From a virus: DNA of 22,373 nt. The position numbers and the translations under genes are program-made. Each line of letters begins with the position of its first letter. The stretch's first letter is position 1. Below, piece by piece: positions 377 through 22,053 of the stretch. The stretch covers positions 1 to 22,373 of the IMG/VR virus record IMGVR_UViG_3300034198_007374; one strand, 5' to 3'. The notes beneath the pieces were generated by a model that saw nothing but the letters and a program-made list of their open reading frames with translations, was not told the DNA's origin and did no database searches.

Positions 377-384
377 TATTTAGC
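377..384 (-). promoter_or_regulatory. T4-type late promoter element (GCTAAATA)
   Basis: On the minus strand the element reads GCTAAATATT, matching the TAAATATT core seen at the other late promoters here. It lies in the short gap between gp17 and the gene starting at 351, about 25 nt upstream of that ATG, leaving room for a leader with an AAGGAT ribosome site. Inference from motif and position only. Confidence 0.5.
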
Positions 385-3805: not shown

Positions 3806-4636
3806 TTATCCTATCAAGGGGTCTACTGGTAGTTCTTGTGTTCTTACTAGCATTGCTTCTAGTGTGTCTAGTTCTCGGGTAGCGTCTTGCATGATGGCTG
3901 CGGAATTGAGTTGTGCACCACCTGGCAAAGGCATTCCAGCAAATTTCATTAAATTTTGAGCCCACTGTTTCTTTAATAAAGCGGCATAATGTCTTTGGAA
4001 GATACGATCATTCCAAACGGCAGGATAATAATCTGGATTTACTTGTACATATGCCTCAACCATCAAATAATTTAAATTTTGCTGTTTGCTGAGTTGGGCT
4101 TCCAAAAACAATCTATTGGTTGATTTGGTGTAAGTATAAGATACAGGATAATTAAAAACATCTTCAATCAAGGAAAGATATTGCATGCTTTCCATGTACG
4201 TTGCCATCGGACCTTGAGACAAACCGCCTTGATTAAAATATAAACCAAAGAAATCAAACAAAGTCATCTGATATCTCAAATCAAACATGTAATCACCAAC
4301 AACGCTACCGGGACTATAAACCTTGCTAATAGTCCTAATATCGCTAGCAGAAGGCCAGTAAGCAGTTAAACCGGTATCAGAAGAAGTTACGCCTTGCGCT
4401 CCAACTGCATAACCAAAATTATTGACATCAAAGTATTTTTGTGTTAAATTTCCTGCTGTTACTGGTACAACAAAGAGTGCACGTTCATTGAAATCAAAAT
4501 GACGCTCATGCATATACTCCAAAGATTCTTGTAAACGATCTTCGGCTTGCTGTGGATCGACATTGATTTGAATTACTGGAGCACCCAGTTTTCTAAAAGC
4601 AAAATCAATAAATTCTTGTTTGGTAGCGATGGCCAT
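3806..4636 (-). CDS. gp13: Neck protein gp13
   Basis: The 276-aa protein is the second neck/collar component. The N-terminal motif FRKLGAPVIQINVDPQQAED followed by RLQESLEYMHERH is the family signature, with further family-like segments FNYPVSYTYTKSTNRLFLE and VWNDRIFQRHYAALLKKQW near the C-terminus. T4 gp13 is about 309 aa. It begins with ATGGC placed 5 nt after a CATAAATA late element and has no Shine-Dalgarno, so its mRNA may be leaderless. gp14 follows after 1 nt. Confidence 0.94.
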   Translation of the reverse strand: MAIATKQEFIDFAFRKLGAPVIQINVDPQQAEDRLQESLEYMHERHFDFNERALFVVPVTAGNLTQKYFDVNNFGYAVGAQGVTSSDTGLTAYWPSASDIRTISKVYSPGSVVGDYMFDLRYQMTLFDFFGLYFNQGGLSQGPMATYMESMQYLSLIEDVFNYPVSYTYTKSTNRLFLEAQLSKQQNLNYLMVEAYVQVNPDYYPAVWNDRIFQRHYAALLKKQWAQNLMKFAGMPLPGGAQLNSAAIMQDATRELDTLEAMLVRTQELPVDPLIG

Positions 4637-4641
4637 ACAAA

Positions 4642-4649
4642 TATTTATG
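4642..4649 (-). promoter_or_regulatory. Late promoter element CATAAATA directly before gp13
   Basis: On the minus strand the sequence is CATAAATATTTGTATGGCC. The octamer differs from the T4 late consensus TATAAATA at one base, and only TTTGT separates it from the gp13 ATG. T4 late transcripts begin a few bases past the octamer, so the start site would fall at or next to the AUG. Confidence 0.65.
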
Positions 4650-4652
4650 AAT

Positions 4653-4679
4653 TTTATACAATTTTATTTATTGTATAAA
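4653..4679. repeat. AT-rich inverted repeat between the 134-aa gene and gp13
   Basis: Arms TTTATACAAT (4653-4662) and ATTGTATAAA (4670-4679) are perfectly complementary over 10 bp around a 7-nt loop. It sits in the only sizeable gap of this block (56 nt). No run of U follows on the minus-strand transcript, so it is not a classical terminator. It could be a weak terminator, an RNA-processing site, or a structure insulating gp13 from the upstream transcript. Confidence 0.5.
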
Positions 4680-4692
4680 GCAAATATCTGTA

Positions 4693-5097
4693 TTAGTCGG
4701 TTCCACCAATAGTAACTTGAATTAATTTTAACTCCTCTGGCTCCAAAGATTCTATCTGTTCTTTTCTTTCTTTGATTTCAGGTATATTAAAATTTGGATC
4801 ATAATTACTGAATCCGGGCATGTGGACAGGACAATTTAATACGGGATAATCTAATTTAGAATATTCTGTAGAATCTTTGATTAGCCATGTGTGTGATCTG
4901 TCACCACACCCACATCTTCCACAAAAATGTTTATTTCCTTGTTCATGGCTAATCCGTAAAAATGGACATGGGCTAATTTTATTTTCTATTCCAAAACAAG
5001 AAACAACCCGCAACTGTTTTGTTTCTAGATCGGTTTTTTTATTTCCTAAACCTCTAGAAGCCAAAGATGCCGCAAACATAACCATTTGTTTAATCAT
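4693..5097 (-). CDS. Conserved-looking Cys-rich (possible zinc-binding) protein
   Basis: The 134-aa protein is not recognised. Residues 34-86 hold seven cysteines and three histidines in a pattern suggesting one or two metal sites: SCFG, SPCPF, HFCGRCGCGDRSH and NCPVHMPGF. The C-terminus (about 107-134) is charged and helical. A hydrophobic N-terminal stretch (MVMFAASLASRG) is short and not convincing as a membrane anchor. A GAGA ribosome site is seen, and the gene begins 13 nt after the wedge gene. Its place between wedge and neck genes suggests a virion or assembly role, but function is unknown. Confidence 0.8.
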   Translation of the reverse strand: MIKQMVMFAASLASRGLGNKKTDLETKQLRVVSCFGIENKISPCPFLRISHEQGNKHFCGRCGCGDRSHTWLIKDSTEYSKLDYPVLNCPVHMPGFSNYDPNFNIPEIKERKEQIESLEPEELKLIQVTIGGTD

Positions 5098-5110
5098 AAA
5101 AATATCTCAA

Positions 5111-5764
5111 TTAAAAGGTACTATAGTTGACTACAATCCCCGCAGGAATTACATAATTCATTAAAAAAGGTTTATACTGATTTAAACTAGAACTTTGAGC
5201 AGATGCTATCGATATTAAAATTGTGGAAGACGTTGATTGCGAAACAATCACATCATTCCATTGAAATCCTAAAAGAGAACATATTACATATTTTATAGCA
5301 GCAGGAGTTCCCTTTATGTCAAAATAATCTTTGCCGGCCATCACAGAAAATGCTCTAATATTTGTGAGAACATTTGATAATGGCTGTTGTGAAAAATCTG
5401 CATTTGGAAAATAAAAATCCGCATATGCTTCCAGAAATACTGAATTTGCATATAATGGTATTCTCAAATTTTCCCAGTTTAATTGTGCGCCATATCCATA
5501 ATCTTGGCTTAAAAGCCATCTCATATAATTTTTAACAATTGTTATGATTGTAACATTACTCGGATTATTCTTATATTCTTTGATTAACCATTGGGGAAAC
5601 AAAGACTCAACAGTTAATTCATCTGCCAACCACGAATTATTCGCTTTGTTTAGTATATTGAATCTATTTTCCTTATTACTTCCACCAATCAATTGAACAT
5701 TATTTAATAAAATAGAAACTTTACTAGTTAAGGTAACCGGTTGATTGTTGAATAATAAAATCAT
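5111..5764 (-). CDS. Baseplate wedge protein, gp7 / tail protein I-like (short)
   Basis: The 217-aa protein follows gp6 with an ATGA overlap. Around residues 45-175 it shows the arrangement of the phage tail protein I / gp7 core: LFPQWLIKEYKNN, then IVKNYMRWLLSQDYGYG, LEAYADFYFP, and the helical signature DIKGTPAAIKYVICSLLGF, as in gpI-type wedge proteins. T4 gp7 is 1032 aa, so this would be only the core that binds the gp6 dimer. Family assignment is by motif and by order (gp25-gp6-next). Another wedge protein cannot be excluded. Confidence 0.65.
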   Translation of the reverse strand: MILLFNNQPVTLTSKVSILLNNVQLIGGSNKENRFNILNKANNSWLADELTVESLFPQWLIKEYKNNPSNVTIITIVKNYMRWLLSQDYGYGAQLNWENLRIPLYANSVFLEAYADFYFPNADFSQQPLSNVLTNIRAFSVMAGKDYFDIKGTPAAIKYVICSLLGFQWNDVIVSQSTSSTILISIASAQSSSLNQYKPFLMNYVIPAGIVVNYSTF

Positions 5765-6840
5765 AAACTATAAGTTAAATTAATTCCAGCAACTGCTTTT
5801 GTATTTAAATATTGCATCAATGCTGTTTGATTTGATGCAGACAATCCTGAAACATAAATTTTTACAAGAGCGGGAGTGTTTGAATCATTTTGTACTGTAA
5901 TAAGTGAAGAATCTGATGTTCCATCTAAACCAGAACTTAAAATCGCATTAACATAATCATTAAGTGTAACACAGCGATCTTGACCAGTGGCATTAAACAA
6001 TAATTTATATCTTGCCAGAGGAACAGAAATTTGATCATATCCCCCTGAAGGCGTACTAGAAGAAATGAATGATACGTCTGGACGTTGTATTATAGTAGAG
6101 TTATTTGCTGCAACACCATTAGAAACAACTGCTTTAATTAATACTGTACTTGCAGTAGTAATTGTTTGTGCAGAGGGCAAATTGTTTGTAACAATATAAC
6201 CTTCTGGTCCATTTATAACGGTAAATGTTGTTTTATTTCCTGTGCTTGCATTTGATCCACGATCTACTCTTGTCCATGTTGTTACATTAGACGAATTTAA
6301 TGGAGCCGTATAAAATTTAATAGTTCTCGGATCCACTGTGTATGGCAACTGACATGATTGTGTTTTGTAATCATAATTTGTATAATTAACAACTTGGGAA
6401 CCGGAATAGAGAGTAAGAGTGGTATTAGTATTTGGATTTACAGCATCAGTATTAAAGAAATACAAATTTGCACCATTCGTAGATGTGGCCAAAAAGGTGC
6501 TATAACTTTGTAAAGTAACACCTGATGTACTGATGCTACCTACAGTTGTTGACCCTTGTGTAGGTGCAATTAAAACTGAACTGTTGGCTGCTATACCCAA
6601 TAAACTTTGTAACAGTGTTGTGGTTGTTGCAAAAGAATTTACATAACCAAATTGTGAATACACGCCGTTATATGCAGTAACAGTGGCTAGAATATTAATC
6701 AATAAATTTGTGGTGCTTGCATTATTATCAAAATCCAAATCGGCTAAATCTGGTTGTTGTTTAAAAAACGAGATTAAAGATGTTTTTATATCGTCAAAAT
6801 CCAAAGACGATACATCAAGATTTTGAAGTTGATAGGTCAT
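5761..6840 (-). CDS. gp6: Baseplate wedge protein gp6 (compact)
   Basis: gp6 forms the inner ring that ties the baseplate wedges together (gpJ in P2). The N-terminus is diagnostic: LDFDDIKTSLISFFKQQ, then LADLDFDNNASTTNLLINIL and TVTAYNGVYSQFGYVNSFAT with LLQSLLGIAANSS. The C-terminal part (ISVPLARYKLLFNATGQDR, then LNDYVNAIL) contains the family's late domain with a final ferredoxin-like fold. At 359 aa it is little more than half of T4 gp6 (660 aa), so the central beta insertions are reduced. It overlaps gp25 and the next gene by ATGA at both ends, indicating tight translational coupling. Confidence 0.88.
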   Translation of the reverse strand: MTYQLQNLDVSSLDFDDIKTSLISFFKQQPDLADLDFDNNASTTNLLINILATVTAYNGVYSQFGYVNSFATTTTLLQSLLGIAANSSVLIAPTQGSTTVGSISTSGVTLQSYSTFLATSTNGANLYFFNTDAVNPNTNTTLTLYSGSQVVNYTNYDYKTQSCQLPYTVDPRTIKFYTAPLNSSNVTTWTRVDRGSNASTGNKTTFTVINGPEGYIVTNNLPSAQTITTASTVLIKAVVSNGVAANNSTIIQRPDVSFISSSTPSGGYDQISVPLARYKLLFNATGQDRCVTLNDYVNAILSSGLDGTSDSSLITVQNDSNTPALVKIYVSGLSASNQTALMQYLNTKAVAGINLTYSL

Positions 6841-7220
6841 TGTAGTTGAACCTCTATATAGGTGCTTGCTTTATTTTGTGTATTTATTCCATCAGTTATC
6901 AAATAAGTAACTAAAAACTGAATTACTGTATCAGTTATATATTCTACATTTACTTGTACATTTGACAATTCCGGAATTGCAGCACTTATATATGCTGCCA
7001 AACTTACTTCCAATGAACCCACATTTCCTTGCCCATTGAAGATATATTTAAAATAATCTGATCCTAAATTCATATTTGAAACAAGTTCGCCTTTTTGGGT
7101 TTTGCAAACAGCTTCAATATATTGAGAATAGGCATTAAATCCACTCACAACAGCCAAATCTTTTTTGGTTGAATTTGTAGATATTTTTTCTAATAGTATG
7201 GAAAAATCTTTTAATGCCAT
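6837..7220 (-). CDS. gp25: Baseplate wedge protein gp25 (GPW/gp25 family)
   Basis: The 127-aa protein has the size of T4 gp25 (132 aa), which nucleates sheath assembly at the baseplate. The segment NAYSQYIEAVCKTQKGELVSNMNLGSDYFKYIFNG corresponds to the family pattern (helix, T.KGE, then a GS..... .lF loop), followed by helix-strand elements typical of the fold. Residues are quoted in parts around positions 29-63. It ends with an ATGA overlap with gp6, the usual gp25-gp6 pair. Its ATG lies 5 nt after a perfect TATAAATA and no Shine-Dalgarno is present. Confidence 0.85.
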   Translation of the reverse strand: MALKDFSILLEKISTNSTKKDLAVVSGFNAYSQYIEAVCKTQKGELVSNMNLGSDYFKYIFNGQGNVGSLEVSLAAYISAAIPELSNVQVNVEYITDTVIQFLVTYLITDGINTQNKASTYIEVQLQ

Positions 7221-7225
7221 CAGAA

Positions 7226-7233
7226 TATTTATA
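7226..7233 (-). promoter_or_regulatory. Late promoter TATAAATA abutting gp25
   Basis: The minus strand reads TATAAATATTCTGATG. The whole 13-nt gap between the stop of the 243-aa gene and the gp25 ATG is the promoter plus five bases. The octamer is a perfect match to the T4 late consensus. A transcript starting the usual few bases downstream would have essentially no 5' leader. Confidence 0.75.
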
Positions 7234-7965
7234 TCAAGGGTAATATGGACCGCTTACTCCTGCAATTTGACTTAATGCCAATGCAGTTTCATGGGTTCCC
7301 GAATTACTTACTACATGTTTTATTCCTGTTATATAATATAATCCATTTAAATACGATGGAGTCGAGACATATGGATATCCGCTCAAAGCATCGGCCTTAA
7401 CATTAACAACTTGGCCTACTTTTAAATTAAAATCACCGGCTATAGTTATATCTACCTTTCTCCCATATTGTAATGCGTCCACAAATTCTGCACGCTGTAC
7501 TGGACCCTCTACTGGAGTATTCCAAAAAGAAGCATCATTCAAGCGGTGTTTAATATATGCCTCATACTTAGGTCCAATATCTGGGCAGTTGCTACTGTAT
7601 GATGCATTTGGTGTACCCCACAAACAACCAGTCCATGCAGTTCCTAACAATTTTGCAACAAGATTTACTTCTTCGGTTGTGGTATTAAAATATAAATCCA
7701 ATCCTTTACCAAATGATCCTCCCGGATTTCCTGTCCATAAAGTATATCCAGATGGACCATATAAATCTGTATTATAAAAACCTATAGCTTTTGCAGTTTG
7801 TAAAATTTGCGGGTATTGTTTAAAGCACGCATCCAATGATGCTGGAGCCCCACAGTTACCTTGGGTTATTCTTCCATTTGCACAATCGTATACATCACGC
7901 GAATTAACAGAATAAAAAGCATTTTTTACTTCGCTTGATCCACGTACTACAATCTGTTTAGACAT
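7234..7965 (-). CDS. Hub-associated protein with gp27/gpD-like C-terminal barrel
   Basis: The 243-aa protein follows the large hub gene after 17 nt with a GGAG ribosome site. Its C-terminal 80 residues (VDITIAGDFNLKVGQVVNVK, then GLYYITGIKHVVSNSGTHET and ALALSQIAG) look like the second barrel of tail hub proteins (gp27/gpD/VgrG type), where a 'G...l.vG..v.v....G.Y.I..v.H' pattern recurs. The N-terminal half, with three or more cysteines (DCANG, NCGAPASLDAC), is unrecognised. I infer that hub functions are divided between this gene and the 656-aa gene. A peptidoglycan hydrolase is an alternative, but no catalytic motif is seen. Confidence 0.55.
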   Translation of the reverse strand: MSKQIVVRGSSEVKNAFYSVNSRDVYDCANGRITQGNCGAPASLDACFKQYPQILQTAKAIGFYNTDLYGPSGYTLWTGNPGGSFGKGLDLYFNTTTEEVNLVAKLLGTAWTGCLWGTPNASYSSNCPDIGPKYEAYIKHRLNDASFWNTPVEGPVQRAEFVDALQYGRKVDITIAGDFNLKVGQVVNVKADALSGYPYVSTPSYLNGLYYITGIKHVVSNSGTHETALALSQIAGVSGPYYP

Positions 7966-7982
7966 AATAAAATCTCCGAGAA

Positions 7983-9953
7983 TTAACAGCTTCCATCCAT
8001 AACATTTTCAGCCCAAAAATAGACTAATTGATCATTAGCACCAACTTGTTGTATGCATACACGCGCAATGTGTACAATATCTCCCGAGTCAGAAATACTA
8101 GAACCTATGGCACCAATTGGACGATATTTAAAATTACTAGATGGAGCCGAAATGGGTACCCATCCAGGTGGTAAATAATTTCCAGTCAATCCACGTTCAT
8201 TTAAATTTATAGCCCAAGTATTATCTTGAGTTATTCCAGATTTGATTGATGGATCGAGAGACCACTGTTCAATTTGATGCCCCTCATAAGTATTGCCGGA
8301 TCTACCGCTTGCAATTCCATATGCACTTGTTACACCAGAAGCACCTGAAGTAAAATTTAATTTATTCCATTTATATCGATAATATTTTGCACCATTTGGT
8401 CCAGTTTGACCTTGTCCGTGATACGGTCCTTGTTCTGAATAATAGGTTGAATCTGGTTCATATCTCTGTAAAACTGCAAAGAAACAATCTTCTGAATTTC
8501 CCATACAACATAATGAATACATTACAAAATTTTGCTTTTCAATTTGTCTCAATTTAGTTAAACGGTCTCCACCTGTAGTACCATCCAATGGCAAGGGACC
8601 ATCATAATAATTTAAATAATTTGAGACATAATAACGAATCTGCATTATTTTATCCAAATACGTATCTTTTCCTGCTACTATTTTTGATGTTAATGGATCT
8701 GGATAATTTGGATGTATTGGAGTCAAATCAAACATATTTTTCCACATATCGGGGCTATCTAAAAATGGCATATATCCAGTTTTACCCATAAAATTCAATG
8801 TTTGATATGCGTCATTTGTTCCATAATTGTTATTAAGAAAACTTGGATTTGATTTATTATTTGTTGGAACATTTCCATCAAAATATCCCCAACTATTTTC
8901 AACCATCAACCTATCTCCACCTTTTGGTGCAGTATTTCCTCTTCCATCTATAGTTACTATATCAATATTATATTTTTCGCCATCATCTTGAAAGTGAAAT
9001 GCCAAATTTCCTCTGGTATAAGACTCTGAATCAGCATCTTCTGCAAGAAATTCGGTCGGCAATTCATCCAGATATTTTGGTGTTTTTCTAACATAATAAT
9101 AATTTTTAGAAATCCATTGAAATGCTGGATTAGTAGCAAAAAAGTATGCTTTTCGATATATTTTTTTATCAGAAAGTTTTTGTATAACAGAATCACCATT
9201 AAAAACGGCTATATTTCTATAATCAGCATCTATTGTTTTATATGATGGATCTTGTGTAAGCCCTCTTTGAAAATATTTAAAATTTACATCTCCACCAAAA
9301 CTTGTCCAAAATAAAAAATTTGGTGATTGGCCAGTCACTCCTACAGCACCCGTAGAAAGATAATTTAACATTTCTACTGCGTTGTCGGGGATTGTTTCTT
9401 CCCGATTATTAAATGGTATTAGTGGTTTATATAAAAAATAATTGCTTGCAGAATCGCTATACCCACCAGTATTTCCAAAAATGTCCTTTTTTAATATCTT
9501 TACAAATTCATCAATAGTAAAAACTGTTGGACGCCCATATCCCTGATTAGACATCAATTCAGTTAAAGTATTTGAAGAAAAATAACGATAATATGAATTG
9601 GTAAAATGAATTACAAATATATTATCTTCAGTATCGGAAGCCGCATTACTGCTATATGATGCGCTGGTAATATCACAAATCCATTTTGAACCATTAAAGA
9701 ATTCAATGATAACATTTGTAATATTATTGTAACCGATATAACTTGCTATATCTCTAAGATCCGTAACACCAATACTTCCATTTGGAAATACATCATTAAT
9801 ATTTTCAACTGTTTCAAGTCGCTCAAATCTACACTGTGTGTTTTGTTGCAATATGTTTAAAGCATTAGATGTAGTACCATCTGATTTGCTGGTTAAATAA
9901 ATAGCCTTTATTGTAGAATACGCAGGATTAAAATTTTTACTTGTATTAGGCAT
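7983..9953 (-). CDS. Baseplate hub protein, gp27-like (large)
   Basis: The 656-aa protein is likely the central hub that joins tube and spike. Residues about 40-165 follow the N-terminal barrel of gp27-like hubs: CRFERLETVENI, SIGVTDLRDIASYIGYN, then VIIEFFNGSKWICDITSAS, an IFVIHFTNSYYRYFSS strand pair and the helix TIDEFVKILKKDIFG. Residues 240-450 include a hub-like middle with many aromatic residues. T4 gp27 is 391 aa, so there is a large extension (residues about 450-656) that I do not recognise. The place between gp53 and gp25 suits a hub. The assignment is by pattern and synteny, not a firm match. Confidence 0.6.
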   Translation of the reverse strand: MPNTSKNFNPAYSTIKAIYLTSKSDGTTSNALNILQQNTQCRFERLETVENINDVFPNGSIGVTDLRDIASYIGYNNITNVIIEFFNGSKWICDITSASYSSNAASDTEDNIFVIHFTNSYYRYFSSNTLTELMSNQGYGRPTVFTIDEFVKILKKDIFGNTGGYSDSASNYFLYKPLIPFNNREETIPDNAVEMLNYLSTGAVGVTGQSPNFLFWTSFGGDVNFKYFQRGLTQDPSYKTIDADYRNIAVFNGDSVIQKLSDKKIYRKAYFFATNPAFQWISKNYYYVRKTPKYLDELPTEFLAEDADSESYTRGNLAFHFQDDGEKYNIDIVTIDGRGNTAPKGGDRLMVENSWGYFDGNVPTNNKSNPSFLNNNYGTNDAYQTLNFMGKTGYMPFLDSPDMWKNMFDLTPIHPNYPDPLTSKIVAGKDTYLDKIMQIRYYVSNYLNYYDGPLPLDGTTGGDRLTKLRQIEKQNFVMYSLCCMGNSEDCFFAVLQRYEPDSTYYSEQGPYHGQGQTGPNGAKYYRYKWNKLNFTSGASGVTSAYGIASGRSGNTYEGHQIEQWSLDPSIKSGITQDNTWAINLNERGLTGNYLPPGWVPISAPSSNFKYRPIGAIGSSISDSGDIVHIARVCIQQVGANDQLVYFWAENVMDGSC

Positions 9954-9954
9954 A

Positions 9955-10827
9955 TCAACTATACTTAGTGGTTATAAATGAACTCTGAACAAATCCAAGT
10001 TGACTGGGAACATATGCTTGAATTTGTTTTGGAGCGTTGTTAACAGTTTGTTGAATTGTATAAGTGAGAGTTGGAGCTGTGCTTCCAGCAGGAACCGCTA
10101 TTTGATTTTCATCATCCGGAGCAGGAACAGCCTGTGGTTGTACATAATCAATTGTTCTGTTTCCGGTTGTAGTTTCTCTGTAAATTGTCTGGGCTTGTGT
10201 ATTTTGAATAATTTGAATTATTCTATCACCTGAAGATTTTTTATTTCCTGTGTAATATGTCCCGGCCCAAGTATATGTACCATCTACATTTTTTTGTATT
10301 ACGGTAACGTGGTCTGCTGTACCTGTAACACTAATAAAAGTACTGTTGTACTGTGGGCCTATAATCATGTTTCCATCATAGAATGATGTGGCCTCTACTA
10401 TTGTAAATGGACCATTTACATCAAAATTACCAGTTACACCCAATTGATAGGATGCTCCAGTATTTCCGGTATAAGGCATTATTATACTTCCCGGATAGAA
10501 AGACGAAGCGCCTGTAGTTACTCCGGGGCTTGAAAATAGTAATAAGTTTATTTTACTGATATTTTGTTGAGAATATACAGTACTATTTGGTGCCAATAAA
10601 TCAAATGGATTCACAGTTTGATTGGCTGCAACAAATGTCCAAAAACTATTAACATCATTATAGACTCGATATGCGGCTTCTACCAAAGTTGTTTTATCAT
10701 CGACTTTAGCGGTAGTTATATCAATTGCATTTCTATTAACATCCAGATAAGTAAAAAAATCAGAAATGCTAAAAGATCCAATAGAACTATTAAAACCTGT
10801 TTGTGGTAGATTTTTAAAAAATTTCAT
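9955..10827 (-). CDS. gp53: Baseplate wedge protein gp53-like
   Basis: T4 gp53 (196 aa) clamps neighbouring wedges around the hub. This 290-aa protein has the family's N-terminal layout (MKFFKNLPQTGF, then SDFFTYLDVN) and a LysM-like segment at about 48-80: LVEAAYRVYNDVNSFWTFVA followed by NQTVNPFDLL. The remainder (about 100-290) is Gly/Thr-rich beta sequence longer than in T4 and unrecognised. It overlaps the preceding gp48-like gene by ATGA, consistent with coupled synthesis. Confidence 0.75.
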   Translation of the reverse strand: MKFFKNLPQTGFNSSIGSFSISDFFTYLDVNRNAIDITTAKVDDKTTLVEAAYRVYNDVNSFWTFVAANQTVNPFDLLAPNSTVYSQQNISKINLLLFSSPGVTTGASSFYPGSIIMPYTGNTGASYQLGVTGNFDVNGPFTIVEATSFYDGNMIIGPQYNSTFISVTGTADHVTVIQKNVDGTYTWAGTYYTGNKKSSGDRIIQIIQNTQAQTIYRETTTGNRTIDYVQPQAVPAPDDENQIAVPAGSTAPTLTYTIQQTVNNAPKQIQAYVPSQLGFVQSSFITTKYS

Positions 10828-11645
10828 GTTGATGTGCCAAAATATCTATAAGAAATTTCAGATTTGGATTGAACTCCATTTACAGAAGGATCATATGATC
10901 CTGTTTCAAATTCACTAAACACCAAACCCAACATTGTTAATGAGGATTTTCCATCTGGTAAATATCTGATTATAGGATCACTTTCATCATTTTTTTGAAC
11001 TTTTACTGTTTCTAATACACACACTAATGGTTCTCCCAACCAATCTGCAGTCAAATCAGTATTTGAACCAAACGCCACACCATTTCCTCTAGAAACTTGC
11101 AACGTCCACAATTGCTGTGGATATGTTCTTTCAGGCAATCCTGTAGCAACAGTGGGATAAGAGGATTTTCTAAAAGTTCCAATAATATTATCTATTTGAA
11201 ATGATTCATCTGCATTTTTTGGTGCAAACAAATATTGAAAATAATATTTCTTTCTTGCTTCTGATACCATTGTTGCTTCAGCAATATTACTAAATCTACG
11301 ATAAGTTGAGGTAGCAAACATTCTTTCCCAATAAAATGTTGCTGGTTGCAAAGTTCTTTTTAAAACACTTATAGCACCCTGCGCACCACCACCTGAATTT
11401 GCGATACCAGCACGACTCAACATCGGTCCTACAGGATTGTTGTTGCTTTCACCGTATTCATGTGCAGCAAGATATCCCGGTTCTTTTGGCATCGGTAGAA
11501 CTAGGTGGGCAAATGCTCTATTAATTACACCTGCTCTGGTTCTATCTGAATTTACTAATGAGTATCCAGCACAATAAAAATTCATCCACATAGGTTGTTC
11601 TGCGGCATAAGATCCGTATGGATATTGGAAGTAATACTGTGCCAT
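10824..11645 (-). CDS. gp48: Tail tube cap / baseplate-tube junction protein, gp48/gp54-like
   Basis: The 273-aa protein fits the gp48/gp54 family that sits on the hub and starts the tail tube. Supporting features are IVL-type N-terminal strand LPMPKEPGYLAAHEYGES, the pattern TFYWERMF followed by a conserved helix KKYYFQYLFAPKNADESFQI with IIGTFRKSSYP, and a C-terminal strand set ending in LTMLGLVFSEFETGS. gp48 and gp54 are paralogues and I cannot separate them with certainty. The location upstream of gp53 is as in many T4-type phages. The ATG lies 6 nt after a TCTAAATA late element with no Shine-Dalgarno. Confidence 0.68.
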   Translation of the reverse strand: MAQYYFQYPYGSYAAEQPMWMNFYCAGYSLVNSDRTRAGVINRAFAHLVLPMPKEPGYLAAHEYGESNNNPVGPMLSRAGIANSGGGAQGAISVLKRTLQPATFYWERMFATSTYRRFSNIAEATMVSEARKKYYFQYLFAPKNADESFQIDNIIGTFRKSSYPTVATGLPERTYPQQLWTLQVSRGNGVAFGSNTDLTADWLGEPLVCVLETVKVQKNDESDPIIRYLPDGKSSLTMLGLVFSEFETGSYDPSVNGVQSKSEISYRYFGTST

Positions 11646-11649
11646 ATTG

Positions 11650-11676
11650 AATATTTAGACAAATTCTCTAAATATT
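11650..11676. promoter_or_regulatory. Divergent late promoters in a perfect inverted repeat
   Basis: The 35-nt gap between the divergent ATGs of the gp48-like gene (11645, minus) and gp4 (11681, plus) holds arms AATATTTAGA (11650-11659) and TCTAAATATT (11667-11676), a perfect 10-bp inverted repeat with a 7-nt spacer. Each arm reads TCTAAATATT towards its own gene and ends 4 nt before that gene's ATG. Each therefore looks like a late promoter (TATAAATA variant) firing outwards. Confidence 0.65.
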
Positions 11677-11680
11677 GTAT

Positions 11681-12100
11681 ATGGCATATAGATCGATTTA
11701 TAATCCCAAAAATCCTAAGAAATATGCTGGTGATGTGTCAAAAATAGTCTGCAGATCATTGTGGGAGAGAAATGTTTGCAAATTTTGTGATGAAACTCCA
11801 AACATTATAAAATGGTCTTCGGAGGAAATTGCAATTCCTTATGTAAATCCATTGGATGAAAAGGTGCACAATTATTTTCCAGACTTCTTGATTCAATTTA
11901 AAAATTCTTCTGGTGTGCATAATTGGATGGTTGAAGTTAAACCTAAAAAACAAACGTATTTAAAAGAGAACGCTTCTAAAAAAGAAAAAGCCATTTGGAT
12001 AATGAATTCAGCCAAGTGGCAAGCCGCTAAAAAATACTGTGATAGCCACAACATTGTATTTAAAATTTTAACAGAAAAAGATTTATTTAACAATGCCTAA
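11681..12100 (+). CDS. gp4: Head completion nuclease gp4 (gp50)
   Basis: The 139-aa product (MAYRSIYNPKNPKKYAGDVS) is a clear homologue of T4 gp4, the head-completion protein needed to finish full heads before tail joining. It belongs to the TnsA-like PD-(D/E)XK nuclease fold. Visible residues are E29 in LWERN, D68 in FPDFL and E85/K87 in MVEVKPK, the complete catalytic set. A TTG two codons upstream keeps the frame open, but the ATG at 11681 aligns with the family start and is 6 nt past a late element. It overlaps the next gene by 8 nt. Confidence 0.93.
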   Translation: MAYRSIYNPKNPKKYAGDVSKIVCRSLWERNVCKFCDETPNIIKWSSEEIAIPYVNPLDEKVHNYFPDFLIQFKNSSGVHNWMVEVKPKKQTYLKENASKKEKAIWIMNSAKWQAAKKYCDSHNIVFKILTEKDLFNNA

Positions 12101-15173: not shown

Positions 15174-15181
15174 TATAAATA
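15174..15181 (+). promoter_or_regulatory. Late promoter TATAAATA for the appendage operon
   Basis: A perfect TATAAATA with downstream TTCTAGACATAAGGATCAAAAATG leaves a 21-nt gap to the first ATG with an AAGGA ribosome site. This is a conventional late promoter with leader, in contrast to the abutting elements at gp13, gp25, gp48 and gp4. Confidence 0.8.
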
Positions 15182-15202: not shown

Positions 15203-16159
15203 ATGGCAATTTCACCATATTACGGAAGCAATTATATTGGGTTGAACAGCGGAGCAACAGTATTCATCGGTGCAGATTCAATTTTGGATCCCGGTGGATA
15301 TACGTACTATACACAATATTTTAAGTTAATGTATGGTGTTACTGGAACTGGAACACCAGTAACATCCGCCAATCCACTTCCAGTTAGCGTAGCGGGTGGA
15401 ATGACGGCTACAATTTCTGGATTCACCGGAACAATTACAATTCAAGGAACACCAAGCGGAACAGCCGTTCCAGTTTCAGGAACTGTATCTGTATCAGGAT
15501 TGACTGGTGCGCCTGTATATGTCAGAACTGCTACAGGTGCACAAGTAGAGGTTACTGGTGGCCGATATATCAATAAAACAAATGACGCTATCTCTGTATA
15601 TGGTCCTGCAGGATCAACTTATGTTTATGTAAACATTGCAGGCACTGGTGGAAATTTTGCAACCGTTTCAAATGGTGCTCTTAATGTTAACATATCCGGA
15701 GCAACCATTTCTGCAACAATTCCTTCGACGGTTACTGTTGTGGGTCTATCTGGTGCAACTGCCGTTGCTGTCACCGTAGGTAATACAGTTGGAATCAATG
15801 ATACGAACATAACTAATGGAATGACTGCAATCTATGGTCAGGTAGTTGGTTTACGTGCAGATCTTGGAGGGTTTGCGGTTACCAGACCATCCTCTTTCAA
15901 AAATAGCAGAGTTAGCGCAACAGTTTCTGTTTCACAACTCGATGCTGTTGGATTTAGTGCTAGCAGCGGCGTGAATCTAAAAGCTCTATCAACAAATACA
16001 GATTTAATCTATATCGGTAATACCGGATCTTTTACCGGGTCATCTGTTGGATTTGCCATGGATCCCGGAGATTCAGTTTTCTTAAATATTGTCAACACAA
16101 ATAAAATTTGGATTCAATCTAATTCTGGAACACAAGTAATAACTTATCTTGCATCTTAA
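15203..16159 (+). CDS. Putative virion surface/fibre-type protein, Gly/Thr/Val-rich
   Basis: The 318-aa product is dominated by Gly, Thr, Ser, Val and Ala in short alternating repeats (TATISGFTGTITIQGT, TVSVSGLTGAPVYV, NVNISGATISATIPSTV), typical of beta-rich fibre or decoration proteins. The last 60 residues (GVNLKALSTNTDLIYIGNTG, then GFAMDPGDSVFLNIVNTNKI) match a small beta-sandwich pattern often seen at the ends of virion proteins. There is no signal peptide. It heads a three-gene late operon. The specific role (head fibre, whisker or tail fibre) is unknown. Confidence 0.75.
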   Translation: MAISPYYGSNYIGLNSGATVFIGADSILDPGGYTYYTQYFKLMYGVTGTGTPVTSANPLPVSVAGGMTATISGFTGTITIQGTPSGTAVPVSGTVSVSGLTGAPVYVRTATGAQVEVTGGRYINKTNDAISVYGPAGSTYVYVNIAGTGGNFATVSNGALNVNISGATISATIPSTVTVVGLSGATAVAVTVGNTVGINDTNITNGMTAIYGQVVGLRADLGGFAVTRPSSFKNSRVSATVSVSQLDAVGFSASSGVNLKALSTNTDLIYIGNTGSFTGSSVGFAMDPGDSVFLNIVNTNKIWIQSNSGTQVITYLAS

Positions 16160-18200: not shown

Positions 18201-21200
18201 TCAATATTCATATATTGCTGGATCAATATCGGTATCTATTATATGTGGTAATTTAATTCTACCACTTTTAGAAATCTTACACCAAAATGGATTTGATGTA
18301 CAAGTACCATCATTGCCAACCTTATTCAGGAATCCAGCCATTAATGCACCTGGACATAATATTTCTCCTACAGAAGTTGGAGTTTGACATATGCACCATG
18401 CATATGGATTTGAACCCGGATCTGGCACTCCACACGAACTTTGACATTCTGCAATTGTTTGAACGGTTTTTCCCATTGGTGTATCAGGTGTTAATACATG
18501 AAGAGGTGCTGGTACATTTATTATATTTTCTGTATAATACAAATTTCCATTTGGATCTTCTTGTGGAGAATAAAAATGTGTATTTAAATTTTCTTGATAT
18601 TTTTGTACTTTTCCACCAAATCTTGCATAGCAATAATTGTTTCCAGAGCACTGGCAAATAGTACAACTTACATTTTCGACTGTGTGTTGCTTTCCCCAAC
18701 CATAACTGGATGTTGAACATACAACAGCAAGGGGATGATATTCAAAACCATTATAACCACAATTAAAATCACATGAACCTACTCCCAAAACTGGACACGA
18801 TTTCGCACCGCATTCACATATGTCGCATGGATTTGTAATAAAATTATTTTTTGGTTCTGGATTTGTCGCTCCAAATTCTCTAAATGCCTCTGGTGATTCT
18901 GGACATTTAACAAAACAAGCATCTCCACATTCATTACATTTTTTAGATGGTCCAAACAAAATATTTGACCACTCTTGTGAGGTTATTTTATCGTTTGGTG
19001 ATTTTCCAATACATTGGCAGCAAGTAATACCAAATAAATCTTTGCATAATTTATTATCTATTCCCGTAGTATTTGGATCGAATAAAAAATTTACGGCTGG
19101 AGCACAACTTGCTGAACATCGTGCTCCACAACAAAATTGACCTTTACATATACTATTACTTGGAATCGAACAATCTTCGACACATCTAACAGAAGATGGA
19201 GCTCCACTGGGATCCCAACATATTCCTTGATAACCACATTCAACGTTGTTTGGATTAGTTGGATCACTATCACCACCAACACTATAACCATTATCGCTGC
19301 ATTTTGTTGATTCTAAATCCTGATTGAGATTAATTCCGCTGCATAAAGTTAAAATACCATTATCAAAATTTGATTCCTTAGGAGAATATTTAATTAATAC
19401 ATTTGGTGCATACCACATATTTTCTGGATGGAAAGTAATATCTGGACCATATCCGTATATATTAAATGGACTACAACCCGTTGAATCACCGCTGCAATAT
19501 TCGCAGTCATCAATATTTAAACACAAGCTTCCCCATTTAACTAAATTCCATGTTCCGGGAATGGCTCTAAAAAATAATTGTCTATTCACATAACCAGGAG
19601 CATTTTTACTATACTGTTTATCAGTATTATAGTATTTTGAATACTGTAAATCTTGAATTTTATATTCTGAAGGAAATCCCGATCCAACACTAGGATCTAT
19701 TTCTCCAGTTATACAATTATAAAATCCAGTTTCGTGTTCTTTAAAAATTTTATCTGGATTTACTGTATTTTCCTTATAGAGAATAAGTCCACCATATGGA
19801 ACTGTTTTTCCATCTCCATACCAACCATATTGCCCTTGACCACTTGGATCTCCCCACTGCAAGTAGTTTGGTGGTATTACTTTTCTAATTGGAGCAAATT
19901 GTGCCAATCCATCAATACCGCTCTCCGGGAACATTTCTGCTGGAGTACACATTCTTCCATAAGCATCATAATATTTTTGTTTTAATGAAATAAAATCACT
20001 GGGTGGCACTGGAACCGGATATCCCGGTTCCCATGGAAGATAATATGCACCACTTGGACCGTTCGCCATTCCAGTTTCAATTATCTGTTTAATCTCATTG
20101 TAGATATTTTCTCTGTGATCTCTTGTACCGATAATTCCGGCTTCGCACATGGCTCCCAAAATATCTCGAACAATTTGAACGTATTTGTGTCCATCACTCG
20201 AACAACCGGGTGGAAACATTCCTTTTCCACGACCATCTGGTAATCCATTATCTGAAATAGAATTGCTAAACATACTAAAGTATGATAGAAATTTTTCAAC
20301 TGTCATCGGAATAGATCCTTGTGATTGATCTGGATCTGCAAATGCCTCAAAAATTCCCAAACGTTTTGCATATTCTAAATCAAACTGGAATAAAGGAGTT
20401 CCAGAACTTTTATAAGTAAAAATTTTAGGTGTAGTTCTTGTAAGCCAGTATCCCCATCTATCTTTTGGATTTGCGGATGATCCATTAGTTCCAGTTCCTC
20501 CAAATCCTGTTTGTGGTGGAATTGTAGGTCCAGCAGCATTTACGTCGTCTAAATTAGTACCCATATAATGGAAGTAATGTTCTAAATGAACAGTTCCAAC
20601 AAATTGGCTAAAGAATGTGCTCTCGCCAAGCATTGGTGTGTATTGTTCCATTTTAAATGTGTAATTTGAAGTATCTGGAGTTTGGGCTATACCAAAATTT
20701 TCTCTATGCAATTGTTCATAATCATATAAACCATAATCACCCAATCCAGTAGTTATGTAACTTACACCCAAATCATATGTTTTTACAGGTGAACTAACAT
20801 CACCACCACCGGCACAGAACACATCAAAAGCCCAAGGATAACTTGTCAGCATCAATCGACGCATATATGGACTCATAGCACAATAATTACAATAATTTTG
20901 TCTAAATCCTCCACTGGATGGTTTATATAATGTATCAATTAAGTCAAAATTTACAAAAAAAGCAGTACCACCCAATTTAGGTACATTTACACCCATATTA
21001 AAAGTATTATCAGAACCCAATATAGTTGATGTTTTTTGTGAATTTGTACGACCTTGTAGTGGCGAATAAAAAACATCTCCCTGTGCTGCTATACGTGTTT
21101 CTATAATTCGTGTAGTTAACATAGGAGTATGATTTAATACCGTAGTCGCATATTGATCCATCCACTCGCAGTCACTGGCACTTTCATTACCATTAGCCAC

Positions 21201-22028
21201 TTTATTCCAACAACTTACAGTAGGATCTACCAAACGAACTGGCGATGTATTTTTTGGATCTTCATAACAAGTACAACACGGAGTCATATCTTTGATGTTA
21301 TGAGAAGGATACAAAAATGATGTGTATTGAGTTAGCCAACCACCTATTGGAAGCCATGCTCTTCCCGTCATAGCCTCATCATTAGGTCCACCCGGAACCC
21401 TTATTGGAGAGGTTATGACATCTCCCCATATATTAAAATCATTCTCATGTGCTTCAGCAACCCAAGGTAATATTTGTGTACAACTGTCACATTTATTTGG
21501 TCTAGTCTCTATATTGTCAGTACTATAATCAGTTCCATAAATTTTTTGATAATAACAGTTTGAAAGATGTGAAACGCTAAAATCAAATCTAGGATCAAGT
21601 AGTGAAAATGCAGAACATTGTGGTATATTGGGGTCACCGTTAACAGCATATTTTGGTGGATACCAAGTCCAAGCACACCCAATATTTTTATATTTTTGTC
21701 TAACGGTTCGTGTTCTGGTTGGATATAGTTTTGTTTTTCCATAACAACATTTACAACCATCATTGGTAATTTTTTCTACTTCATTACCACTTTTGTAAAC
21801 GGCATCAGAACCAACACGTTGAAATAAAATGATTTCATCATCTGGATGTATTGGGTATACATTTACATTTTTAACTGTTTTATAACCACCAGTATCTGGA
21901 TCTGTTATCAAATTTCCATTAGAATCAAGAGCATATTCTCTATCAACTAATAGGTCACCGAGCATTGCGACATTATTTGTATAATTATACGGAGCGCAGC
22001 ATTTACAACAACAAGCTTTTTTAGGCAT
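18201..22028 (-). CDS. Giant cysteine-rich late protein (1275 aa)
   Basis: I do not recognise this protein. By my count it has about 65 cysteines. It opens with CCCKCC (residues 6-11) and has pairs or trios such as DGCKCC (about 92), CDSC, CCTC and CNYC. Residues about 840-1140 hold around 33 cysteines in spaced patterns like small disulfide or metal-knot repeats (CNECGDACFVKC, CDICECGAKSC, CTICQCSGNNYC). The central part (about 330-830) is aromatic- and Gly-rich without cysteine repeats. No signal peptide or membrane segment is evident, and it starts from a perfect late promoter, so a virion or host-contact role is likely. A very large phage-encoded metal-binding protein is an alternative. 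The ribosome site is TGAGAA. Confidence 0.8.
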   Translation of the reverse strand: MPKKACCCKCCAPYNYTNNVAMLGDLLVDREYALDSNGNLITDPDTGGYKTVKNVNVYPIHPDDEIILFQRVGSDAVYKSGNEVEKITNDGCKCCYGKTKLYPTRTRTVRQKYKNIGCAWTWYPPKYAVNGDPNIPQCSAFSLLDPRFDFSVSHLSNCYYQKIYGTDYSTDNIETRPNKCDSCTQILPWVAEAHENDFNIWGDVITSPIRVPGGPNDEAMTGRAWLPIGGWLTQYTSFLYPSHNIKDMTPCCTCYEDPKNTSPVRLVDPTVSCWNKVANGNESASDCEWMDQYATTVLNHTPMLTTRIIETRIAAQGDVFYSPLQGRTNSQKTSTILGSDNTFNMGVNVPKLGGTAFFVNFDLIDTLYKPSSGGFRQNYCNYCAMSPYMRRLMLTSYPWAFDVFCAGGGDVSSPVKTYDLGVSYITTGLGDYGLYDYEQLHRENFGIAQTPDTSNYTFKMEQYTPMLGESTFFSQFVGTVHLEHYFHYMGTNLDDVNAAGPTIPPQTGFGGTGTNGSSANPKDRWGYWLTRTTPKIFTYKSSGTPLFQFDLEYAKRLGIFEAFADPDQSQGSIPMTVEKFLSYFSMFSNSISDNGLPDGRGKGMFPPGCSSDGHKYVQIVRDILGAMCEAGIIGTRDHRENIYNEIKQIIETGMANGPSGAYYLPWEPGYPVPVPPSDFISLKQKYYDAYGRMCTPAEMFPESGIDGLAQFAPIRKVIPPNYLQWGDPSGQGQYGWYGDGKTVPYGGLILYKENTVNPDKIFKEHETGFYNCITGEIDPSVGSGFPSEYKIQDLQYSKYYNTDKQYSKNAPGYVNRQLFFRAIPGTWNLVKWGSLCLNIDDCEYCSGDSTGCSPFNIYGYGPDITFHPENMWYAPNVLIKYSPKESNFDNGILTLCSGINLNQDLESTKCSDNGYSVGGDSDPTNPNNVECGYQGICWDPSGAPSSVRCVEDCSIPSNSICKGQFCCGARCSASCAPAVNFLFDPNTTGIDNKLCKDLFGITCCQCIGKSPNDKITSQEWSNILFGPSKKCNECGDACFVKCPESPEAFREFGATNPEPKNNFITNPCDICECGAKSCPVLGVGSCDFNCGYNGFEYHPLAVVCSTSSYGWGKQHTVENVSCTICQCSGNNYCYARFGGKVQKYQENLNTHFYSPQEDPNGNLYYTENIINVPAPLHVLTPDTPMGKTVQTIAECQSSCGVPDPGSNPYAWCICQTPTSVGEILCPGALMAGFLNKVGNDGTCTSNPFWCKISKSGRIKLPHIIDTDIDPAIYEY

Positions 22029-22045
22029 AATAAGTTCTCACAATA

Positions 22046-22053
22046 TATTTATA
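22046..22053 (-). promoter_or_regulatory. Late promoter TATAAATA for the 1275-aa gene
   Basis: The minus strand reads CGTATAAATATATTGTGAGAAC. The octamer is a perfect match to the late consensus, 17 nt before the ATG at 22028, with a TGAGAA ribosome site between. It sits just downstream of the terminator of the upstream gene. Confidence 0.78.

Follow-up and report, generated by a model that had tools for sequence, protein, structure and literature searches.

In a large clade of uncultured environmental T4-like phages, a fixed group of virion genes is very probably expressed from gp55-type late promoters that lie only a few nucleotides from the start codon. The late mRNAs of these genes would be leaderless, with 0-3 nt before the AUG, which would give the clade a second mode of late expression. 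The observation that prompts this reading, late octamers set against AUG codons that lack a Shine-Dalgarno (SD) sequence, was confirmed in the stretch of viral DNA where it had first been made, and the same arrangement recurs in nearly every relative compared.

Late octamers and start codons in the window

The window, that is, the whole stretch of DNA analysed here, comprises 22,373 nt (positions 1 to 22,373 of IMG/VR virus record IMGVR_UViG_3300034198_007374). It carries the T4-type virion genes gp17, gp16, tail sheath stabiliser, gp14, gp13, gp6-like, gp25-like, gp48-like, gp4, tail tube protein, gp26-like, and gp32. The genes and octamers considered below are as follows.

3806-4636, minus strand: gp13, head-tail adaptor Ad2 (neck), 276 aa; firm match to phrog_211 (1.5e-28)
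4642-4649, minus strand: gp13 late octamer CATAAATA; 5-nt spacer TTTGT, ATG at 4636-4634; transcript predicted to begin at 4636, the A of AUG
6837-7220, minus strand: gp25-like baseplate wedge protein, 127 aa; weak PHROG matches (1.4e-5, 2.8e-4)
7226-7233, minus strand: gp25 late octamer TATAAATA; 5-nt spacer TTCTG, ATG at 7220-7218
10824-11645, minus strand: gp48-like baseplate tail tube cap, 273 aa; weak match to phrog_230 (5.6e-5)
11652-11659, minus strand: gp48-like late octamer TCTAAATA; 6-nt spacer TTCAAT, ATG at 11645-11643
11667-11674, plus strand: gp4 late octamer TCTAAATA; 6-nt spacer TTGTAT, ATG at 11681-11683
11681-12100, plus strand: gp4, head completion/closure protein, 139 aa; firm match to phrog_218 (9.3e-50)
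377-384, minus strand: gp18 (tail sheath) late octamer GCTAAATA; 25-nt spacer with SD AAGG, ATG at 351
15174-15181, plus strand: late octamer TATAAATA of a 318-aa fibre-like gene; 21-nt spacer with SD AAGGATC, ATG at 15203
22046-22053, minus strand: late octamer TATAAATA of a 1275-aa Cys-rich gene; 17-nt spacer with weak SD GAG, ATG at 22028

The names gp25 and gp48-like are weak by sequence (1e-5 and 6e-5), but the genes stand in a T4-type order: the gp25-like gene is followed by the gp6-like gene, and the gp48-like gene and gp4 point away from each other, both of them arrangements known from T4-like phages. The gp25 octamer lies directly 3' of the upstream gene's stop codon, and the gp4 and gp48 octamers together form an inverted repeat. 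Homology of gp4 begins at residue 1 (phrog_218, and tblastn in many T4-like phages), which supports the AUG at 11681 as its true start.

The first-pass annotation had described four octamers placed 5-6 nt from ATGGC starts that lack an SD, and each part of this description was borne out. The spacer measures 5 nt for gp13 and gp25 and 6 nt for gp48-like and gp4, the octamer sequences are as quoted there, and ATGGC follows the spacer directly in all four genes. Predicted anti-SD energies at the four starts (+0.6 to +1.8 kcal/mol) are among the weakest in the window, where SD-led genes reach about -4 to -9 kcal/mol. The annotation had also assigned normal leaders with ribosome sites to three other late genes. 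Ribosome sites are clear before gp18 at 351 (AAGG) and before the 318-aa fibre-like gene (AAGGATC), but the assignment holds only in part for the 1275-aa gene, which has only a weak GAG and a predicted energy of -2.7 kcal/mol.

With 26 starts and the window's own TAAATA frequency, 0.098 occurrences would be expected at spacers of 5-8 nt and four were seen (Poisson P = 3.5e-6); among shuffled upstream sequences, 1 in 20,000 reached four short-spaced sites. The signal is positional only, as raw TAAATA is not enriched across the whole window (42 versus 47 expected). These position statistics, together with the relatives described below, rule out chance as the cause of the short spacing. Sigma-70-like sites around 11400-11900 occur at chance level only, and a second, upstream TAAATA found 51 nt away in some gp48 leaders was rejected because it is preceded by T and thus is not promoter-like. 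RNA structure in the first 60 nt of gp13, gp25, gp48-like, and gp4 is unremarkable. The 60 nt before the gp13 AUG in the window fold strongly as read-through RNA (z -3.8), and this fold may add a structural layer to control there; the relatives lack the window's sequence at this place.

Two spacing classes across the clade

Relatives were collected by protein searches of a viral contig collection, which gave 26, 80, 12, and 59 loci; the sequence upstream of the homologous start was read in each, and distinct upstream sequences were counted. The counts below, being over related phages, are not independent of one another. The octamer lies 5-7 nt from the start of gp4 in 44/44 distinct relatives, 5-8 nt from that of gp13 in 48/49, 5-6 nt from that of gp25 in 46/46, and 5-9 nt from that of gp48-like in 40/40. 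Of the 179 distinct upstream sequences of the four genes together, 178 have TAAATA at a spacing of 5-9 nt. The spacing persists where protein identity has fallen to about 37% for gp25 and about 45% for gp4, with sequence farther upstream turning over freely and even the gene next to gp13 changing. The exceptions are a gp13 lacking the octamer (L105) and a gp25 that starts with GTG (L023). The annotation had named a lack of enrichment at this distance in relatives as one result that would speak against its proposal. Enrichment was seen instead, as a nearly invariant spacing and as a sharp excess over control hexamers: in four long contigs, [AC]TAAATA occurs at 5-8 nt in 47 sites, 34 of them outside five named families, and each of eight control hexamers occurs there 3-12 times.

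The distances fall into two groups. TAAATA-to-ATG sites in the relatives number 98, 34, 37, and 10 at 5, 6, 7, and 8 nt, respectively, with a single site at 4 nt and few from 9 to 12 nt; a second, broad group with SD extends from about 15 to 36 nt. SD-like 4-mers accompany 2/105 short-spaced sites versus 56/83 sites at 16-30 nt (several of the latter sites are second octamers of short-spaced genes), and they are found in 0/153 sites of four named families. The genes gp4, gp48, gp25, gp13, and gp3 are short-spaced in 154/155 distinct upstream sequences, and the leadered families are leadered in 70/70 sites. Always leadered with SD are gp18 (22/22 distinct relatives), gp22, gp23, the 318-aa fibre-like protein (25/25 distinct relatives), two unnamed proteins, and a ribonucleotide reductase. 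Among the families compared, none crosses between the two modes. The suggestion that the phage has two late modes thus agrees with the relatives, in which SD presence tracks spacing and each gene keeps its own mode. Start codons in the short families are ATG in 154/155 cases and GTG in one, a weak discriminator because most leadered genes also use ATG.

Each long contig has about 7-17 short-spaced genes, many of them without known function. The annotation had placed leaderless messages inside the structural block, where they would restart translation. The positions of gp25 and gp13 fit this picture, but the short class is genome-wide, and gp4 and gp48 form a divergent pair, in which neither gene has a candidate late start other than its octamer.

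The clade shares with the T4 late promoter (gp55/gp33/gp45, TATAAATA at -13 to -6) the octamer core, the expected distance to the start, and orthologous late genes. Unlike the clade, T4 has no octamer 5-8 nt from a start in 100 kb; its late octamers lie about 12-35 nt from the start, mostly with an SD. Its gp4, with a 26-nt spacer containing AAGGAG, differs from the short-spaced gp4 of the clade, and the octamers before the orthologous gp4 starts of T4 and of two cyanophages stand 24-26 nt from the start. In marine cyanomyoviruses (S-PM2, NATAAATA), late genes stand behind the core motif seen in the clade (PMC2984593), but the S-PM2 and S-SRM01 samples are without the 5-8 nt class, and their octamers stand about 19-40 nt away, mostly without a clear SD. 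The 5-8 nt class was not found in the sampled stretches of T4, S-PM2, DLP6, S-SRM01, and ACP17, nor were short-spaced sites in Vibrio phage 1.255 and a giant-phage stretch. Melnitz has two 5-8 nt sites, a marine single-cell contig has one, and Flavobacterium phage MaF61 has two short-spaced starts and one alternative in-frame start. A gp13 tree separates the clade, on a long branch of its own, from the cyanophages, from Melnitz, and from the DLP6 group. The more distant loci L024-L028 (45-48% identity) still have short gp4 spacing, and in G014, the one long contig examined from this distant set, most late genes are leadered. Because the sampled stretches of T4, S-PM2, DLP6, S-SRM01, and ACP17 are without the 5-8 nt class, the short-spaced arrangement is best seen as a clade-level innovation, with that of gp4 perhaps older.

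As to the origin of the clade, a cyanophage source was rejected, as no psbA-type reaction-centre gene was found. A genome scan for the host with gp13 found no relative, and the one hit of a scan with the terminase, at 46%, was in a Bacteroidetes MAG; it was discarded as a host clue because this relative groups with DLP6 and G014 and not with the clade.

Predicted transcript starts and competing explanations

The T4 late octamer occupies -13 to -6 (PMC1524935), and therefore, at the commonest spacing in the clade, 5 nt, +1 would fall on the A of AUG. In T4 late promoters the octamer is directly followed by AT-rich sequence (PMC2988020). The clade's leadered sites are rich in T at positions 1-5 after the octamer, and 64/70 have a purine at position 6. 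Among short sites, 101/154 have a 5-nt spacer, so that position 6 is the A of AUG, and position 6 is also A in 17/18 sites with a 7-nt spacer and in 5/6 with an 8-nt spacer. From these patterns we infer that the initiating nucleotide and the start codon would coincide, or nearly so: a 5-nt spacer would make the A of AUG +1, a 6-nt spacer would put the start at that A or one base earlier, and 7-8 nt would leave a leader of 2-3 nt with A as its first base. The sharp lower edge of the spacing peak would then be the last position that keeps the AUG inside the predicted transcript. Some caution is warranted, since position 7 is also A in 51/70 leadered sites, which makes the T4 -13/-6 rule an extrapolation here; a start at position 7 would truncate the AUG of the spacer-5 genes. 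A gp55 homologue is encoded in three clade contigs (G001, G002, and G003; 3e-39 to 8e-40), gp46 and gp47 homologues are encoded in clade contigs, and a clamp family match is over the cut-off in one contig and weak in three.

Compaction of the genome offers another account of the short spacing, in which short gaps push the promoter against the start codon; the mRNAs would be leaderless on this account too, but the missing leader would serve no function. For gp25 the gap measures 13 nt in nearly all relatives; for gp13 it is mostly 8 nt, and the TAA within the octamer doubles as stop codon of the gene before it; and the divergent gp4 and gp48 are separated by about 35 nt. However, the gp13 spacing is still 5 nt where the gap widens to 207, 239, and 253 nt (L084, L085, and L108), gp48 in L092 remains short-spaced with a 468-nt gap, and 34 nt are room enough for an SD leader before gp18 in 22/22 cases. 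As compaction also leaves the lower edge of the spacing peak at +1 unexplained, we regard it as an unlikely sole cause.

It is similarly improbable that the octamers act as promoters while polycistronic read-through mRNA is the main template for the proteins, with translation by termination-reinitiation or from unstructured SD-less starts and the short leader being incidental. Most gp13 starts and those of gp25 lie 8-13 nt behind an upstream stop codon, and because both genes stand close behind same-strand genes in most relatives, read-through and termination-reinitiation could also supply them; moreover, some other phage genes are SD-less as well (gp19, SD 4-mer in 0/29). Against this, gp13 keeps the arrangement behind divergent neighbours too, and gp4 and gp48, being divergent and about 35 nt apart, have no upstream cistron for reinitiation.

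A TAAATA serving beside the AUG as an A/U-rich translation element (for S1 or as an unstructured start site) and not as a promoter is very improbable: in bacteria, starts without an SD are commonly preceded by A/T-rich bases, which have been connected with S1 as well as with leaderless transcription (PMC5397173), but here a specific hexamer recurs at fixed spacing, same-composition control hexamers are not enriched, and the base before TAAATA is A or C as strictly in short sites (154/154) as in leadered late promoters (70/70), against only 39% of all TAAATA in five contigs.

Probable translation and possible use of the predicted leaderless late messages

If gp55-type promoters indeed yield leaderless gp13, gp25, gp48, and gp4 mRNAs, these would probably be translated via recognition of the 5'-terminal AUG, in a 70S-type initiation, alongside ordinary SD-led late mRNAs such as those predicted for gp18, gp22, gp23, and the fibres. 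In E. coli, 70S ribosomes need no more than a 5'-terminal AUG to bind and translate an mRNA (PMC4965119). The predicted messages resemble leaderless mRNA of the lambda cI type in having the AUG at or near the expected 5' end, no SD, and almost always AUG as start codon. Unlike lambda cI, they are predicted for a set of virion genes, from promoters of a dedicated late sigma factor, and with the mode fixed for each gene. Phage-encoded ribosome factors that might favour leaderless starts were sought, and neither S21 nor an IF3 C-domain was found in the contigs searched, which are fragments.

The most likely use of the short-spaced AUG is a late-only gate, in which it would start translation efficiently only on RNA initiated at the late promoter next to it. 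Translation would be late-only because, on read-through RNA, the AUG would be internal and without SD. A possible analogue is the control of T4 gene e and I-TevI, where the position of the late promoter restricts efficient translation to late transcripts (PMC3014915). In that case a hairpin in the read-through RNA masks an SD, whereas the short-spaced genes of the clade have no SD at all.

The short-spaced mode might also suit virion parts made in small amounts. In T4, the short-spaced genes correspond to neck, baseplate, and tail-end parts present in few copies, and gp23, gp22, and gp18 are present in many. This split suggests a stoichiometric use of the short-spaced mode. More tentatively, one sigma factor may serve a two-channel late programme, in which the abundant parts (capsid, scaffold, sheath, and fibres) would be SD-led and the low-copy neck and baseplate parts leaderless, by way of the AUG gate or for low stoichiometry; we regard this wider reading as possible but rather doubtful.

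Our literature search, with most subscription papers outside its reach, found no report of leaderless T4-type late mRNAs. If the 5' ends lie as predicted, a whole environmental T4-like clade expresses conserved virion genes through leaderless messages encoded by the promoter, and has held each gene to its leaderless or SD-led mode over deep divergence. The arrangement would then be a simple case in which the promoter alone sets the mode of translation, would caution against gene finding that ranks start codons by SD, and would offer a natural, replicated comparison for the benefits of leaderless translation.

The divergent gp4 and gp48-like promoters

The late octamers (T4-type late promoter motifs with a TAAATA core) of the genes for the head completion protein gp4 and the gp48-like baseplate tail tube cap make up an inverted repeat whose 10-bp arms match perfectly and lie approximately 7 nt apart (window 11650-11676). 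Owing to this arrangement, two polymerases could hardly occupy both promoters simultaneously. The divergent orientation of the two genes is kept in relatives.

The region preceding gp13

In this phage, a strong hairpin is predicted in read-through RNA ahead of the neck adaptor gene gp13 (window 4637-4696; -12.7 kcal/mol, z -3.8), and the same interval contains a further TAAATA, which is separated from the gp13 start by 28 nt. The sole gp13 relative lacking an octamer is L105, in which the ATG is preceded by GAAATTTCGGTAG...AAATTTACCGAATTTGAAAC.

Leadered late genes in other phages

In the comparison phages S-PM2 and S-SRM01 (loci L176, L194, and L197), the majority of late-octamer genes are leadered, yet they have no clear Shine-Dalgarno sequence; one precedes 1 of 11 such genes in S-PM2 and 0 of 10 in S-SRM01. 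Contig CAIWHI010000271 (L201), from a Bacteroidetes metagenome bin, carries a T4-like terminase with 46% identity to that of the window; its late octamers are leadered only, and its gp13 clusters with those of phage DLP6 and viral contig G014.

Unusual proteins and a tmRNA candidate

One late-octamer gene of the window encodes a protein whose cysteine richness is unusual among phage late proteins:

18201-22028, minus strand: very Cys-rich 1275-aa protein, late octamer upstream

Function-unassigned proteins sharing an N-terminal motif (e.g., MNYLTNYYKNLSEQL and MDYLTNYYKNLCEQL) occur in several copies per genome in viral contigs G002, G003, and G004, some short-spaced (octamer 5-8 nt before the start) and others Shine-Dalgarno-led. 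G003, a relative of this phage, also appears to encode a permuted tmRNA (L183 11942-12195, minus strand); this candidate, surrounded by tRNA genes, scores 77.4 bits against Rfam RF04321 (cut-off 47), and ARAGORN is in agreement.
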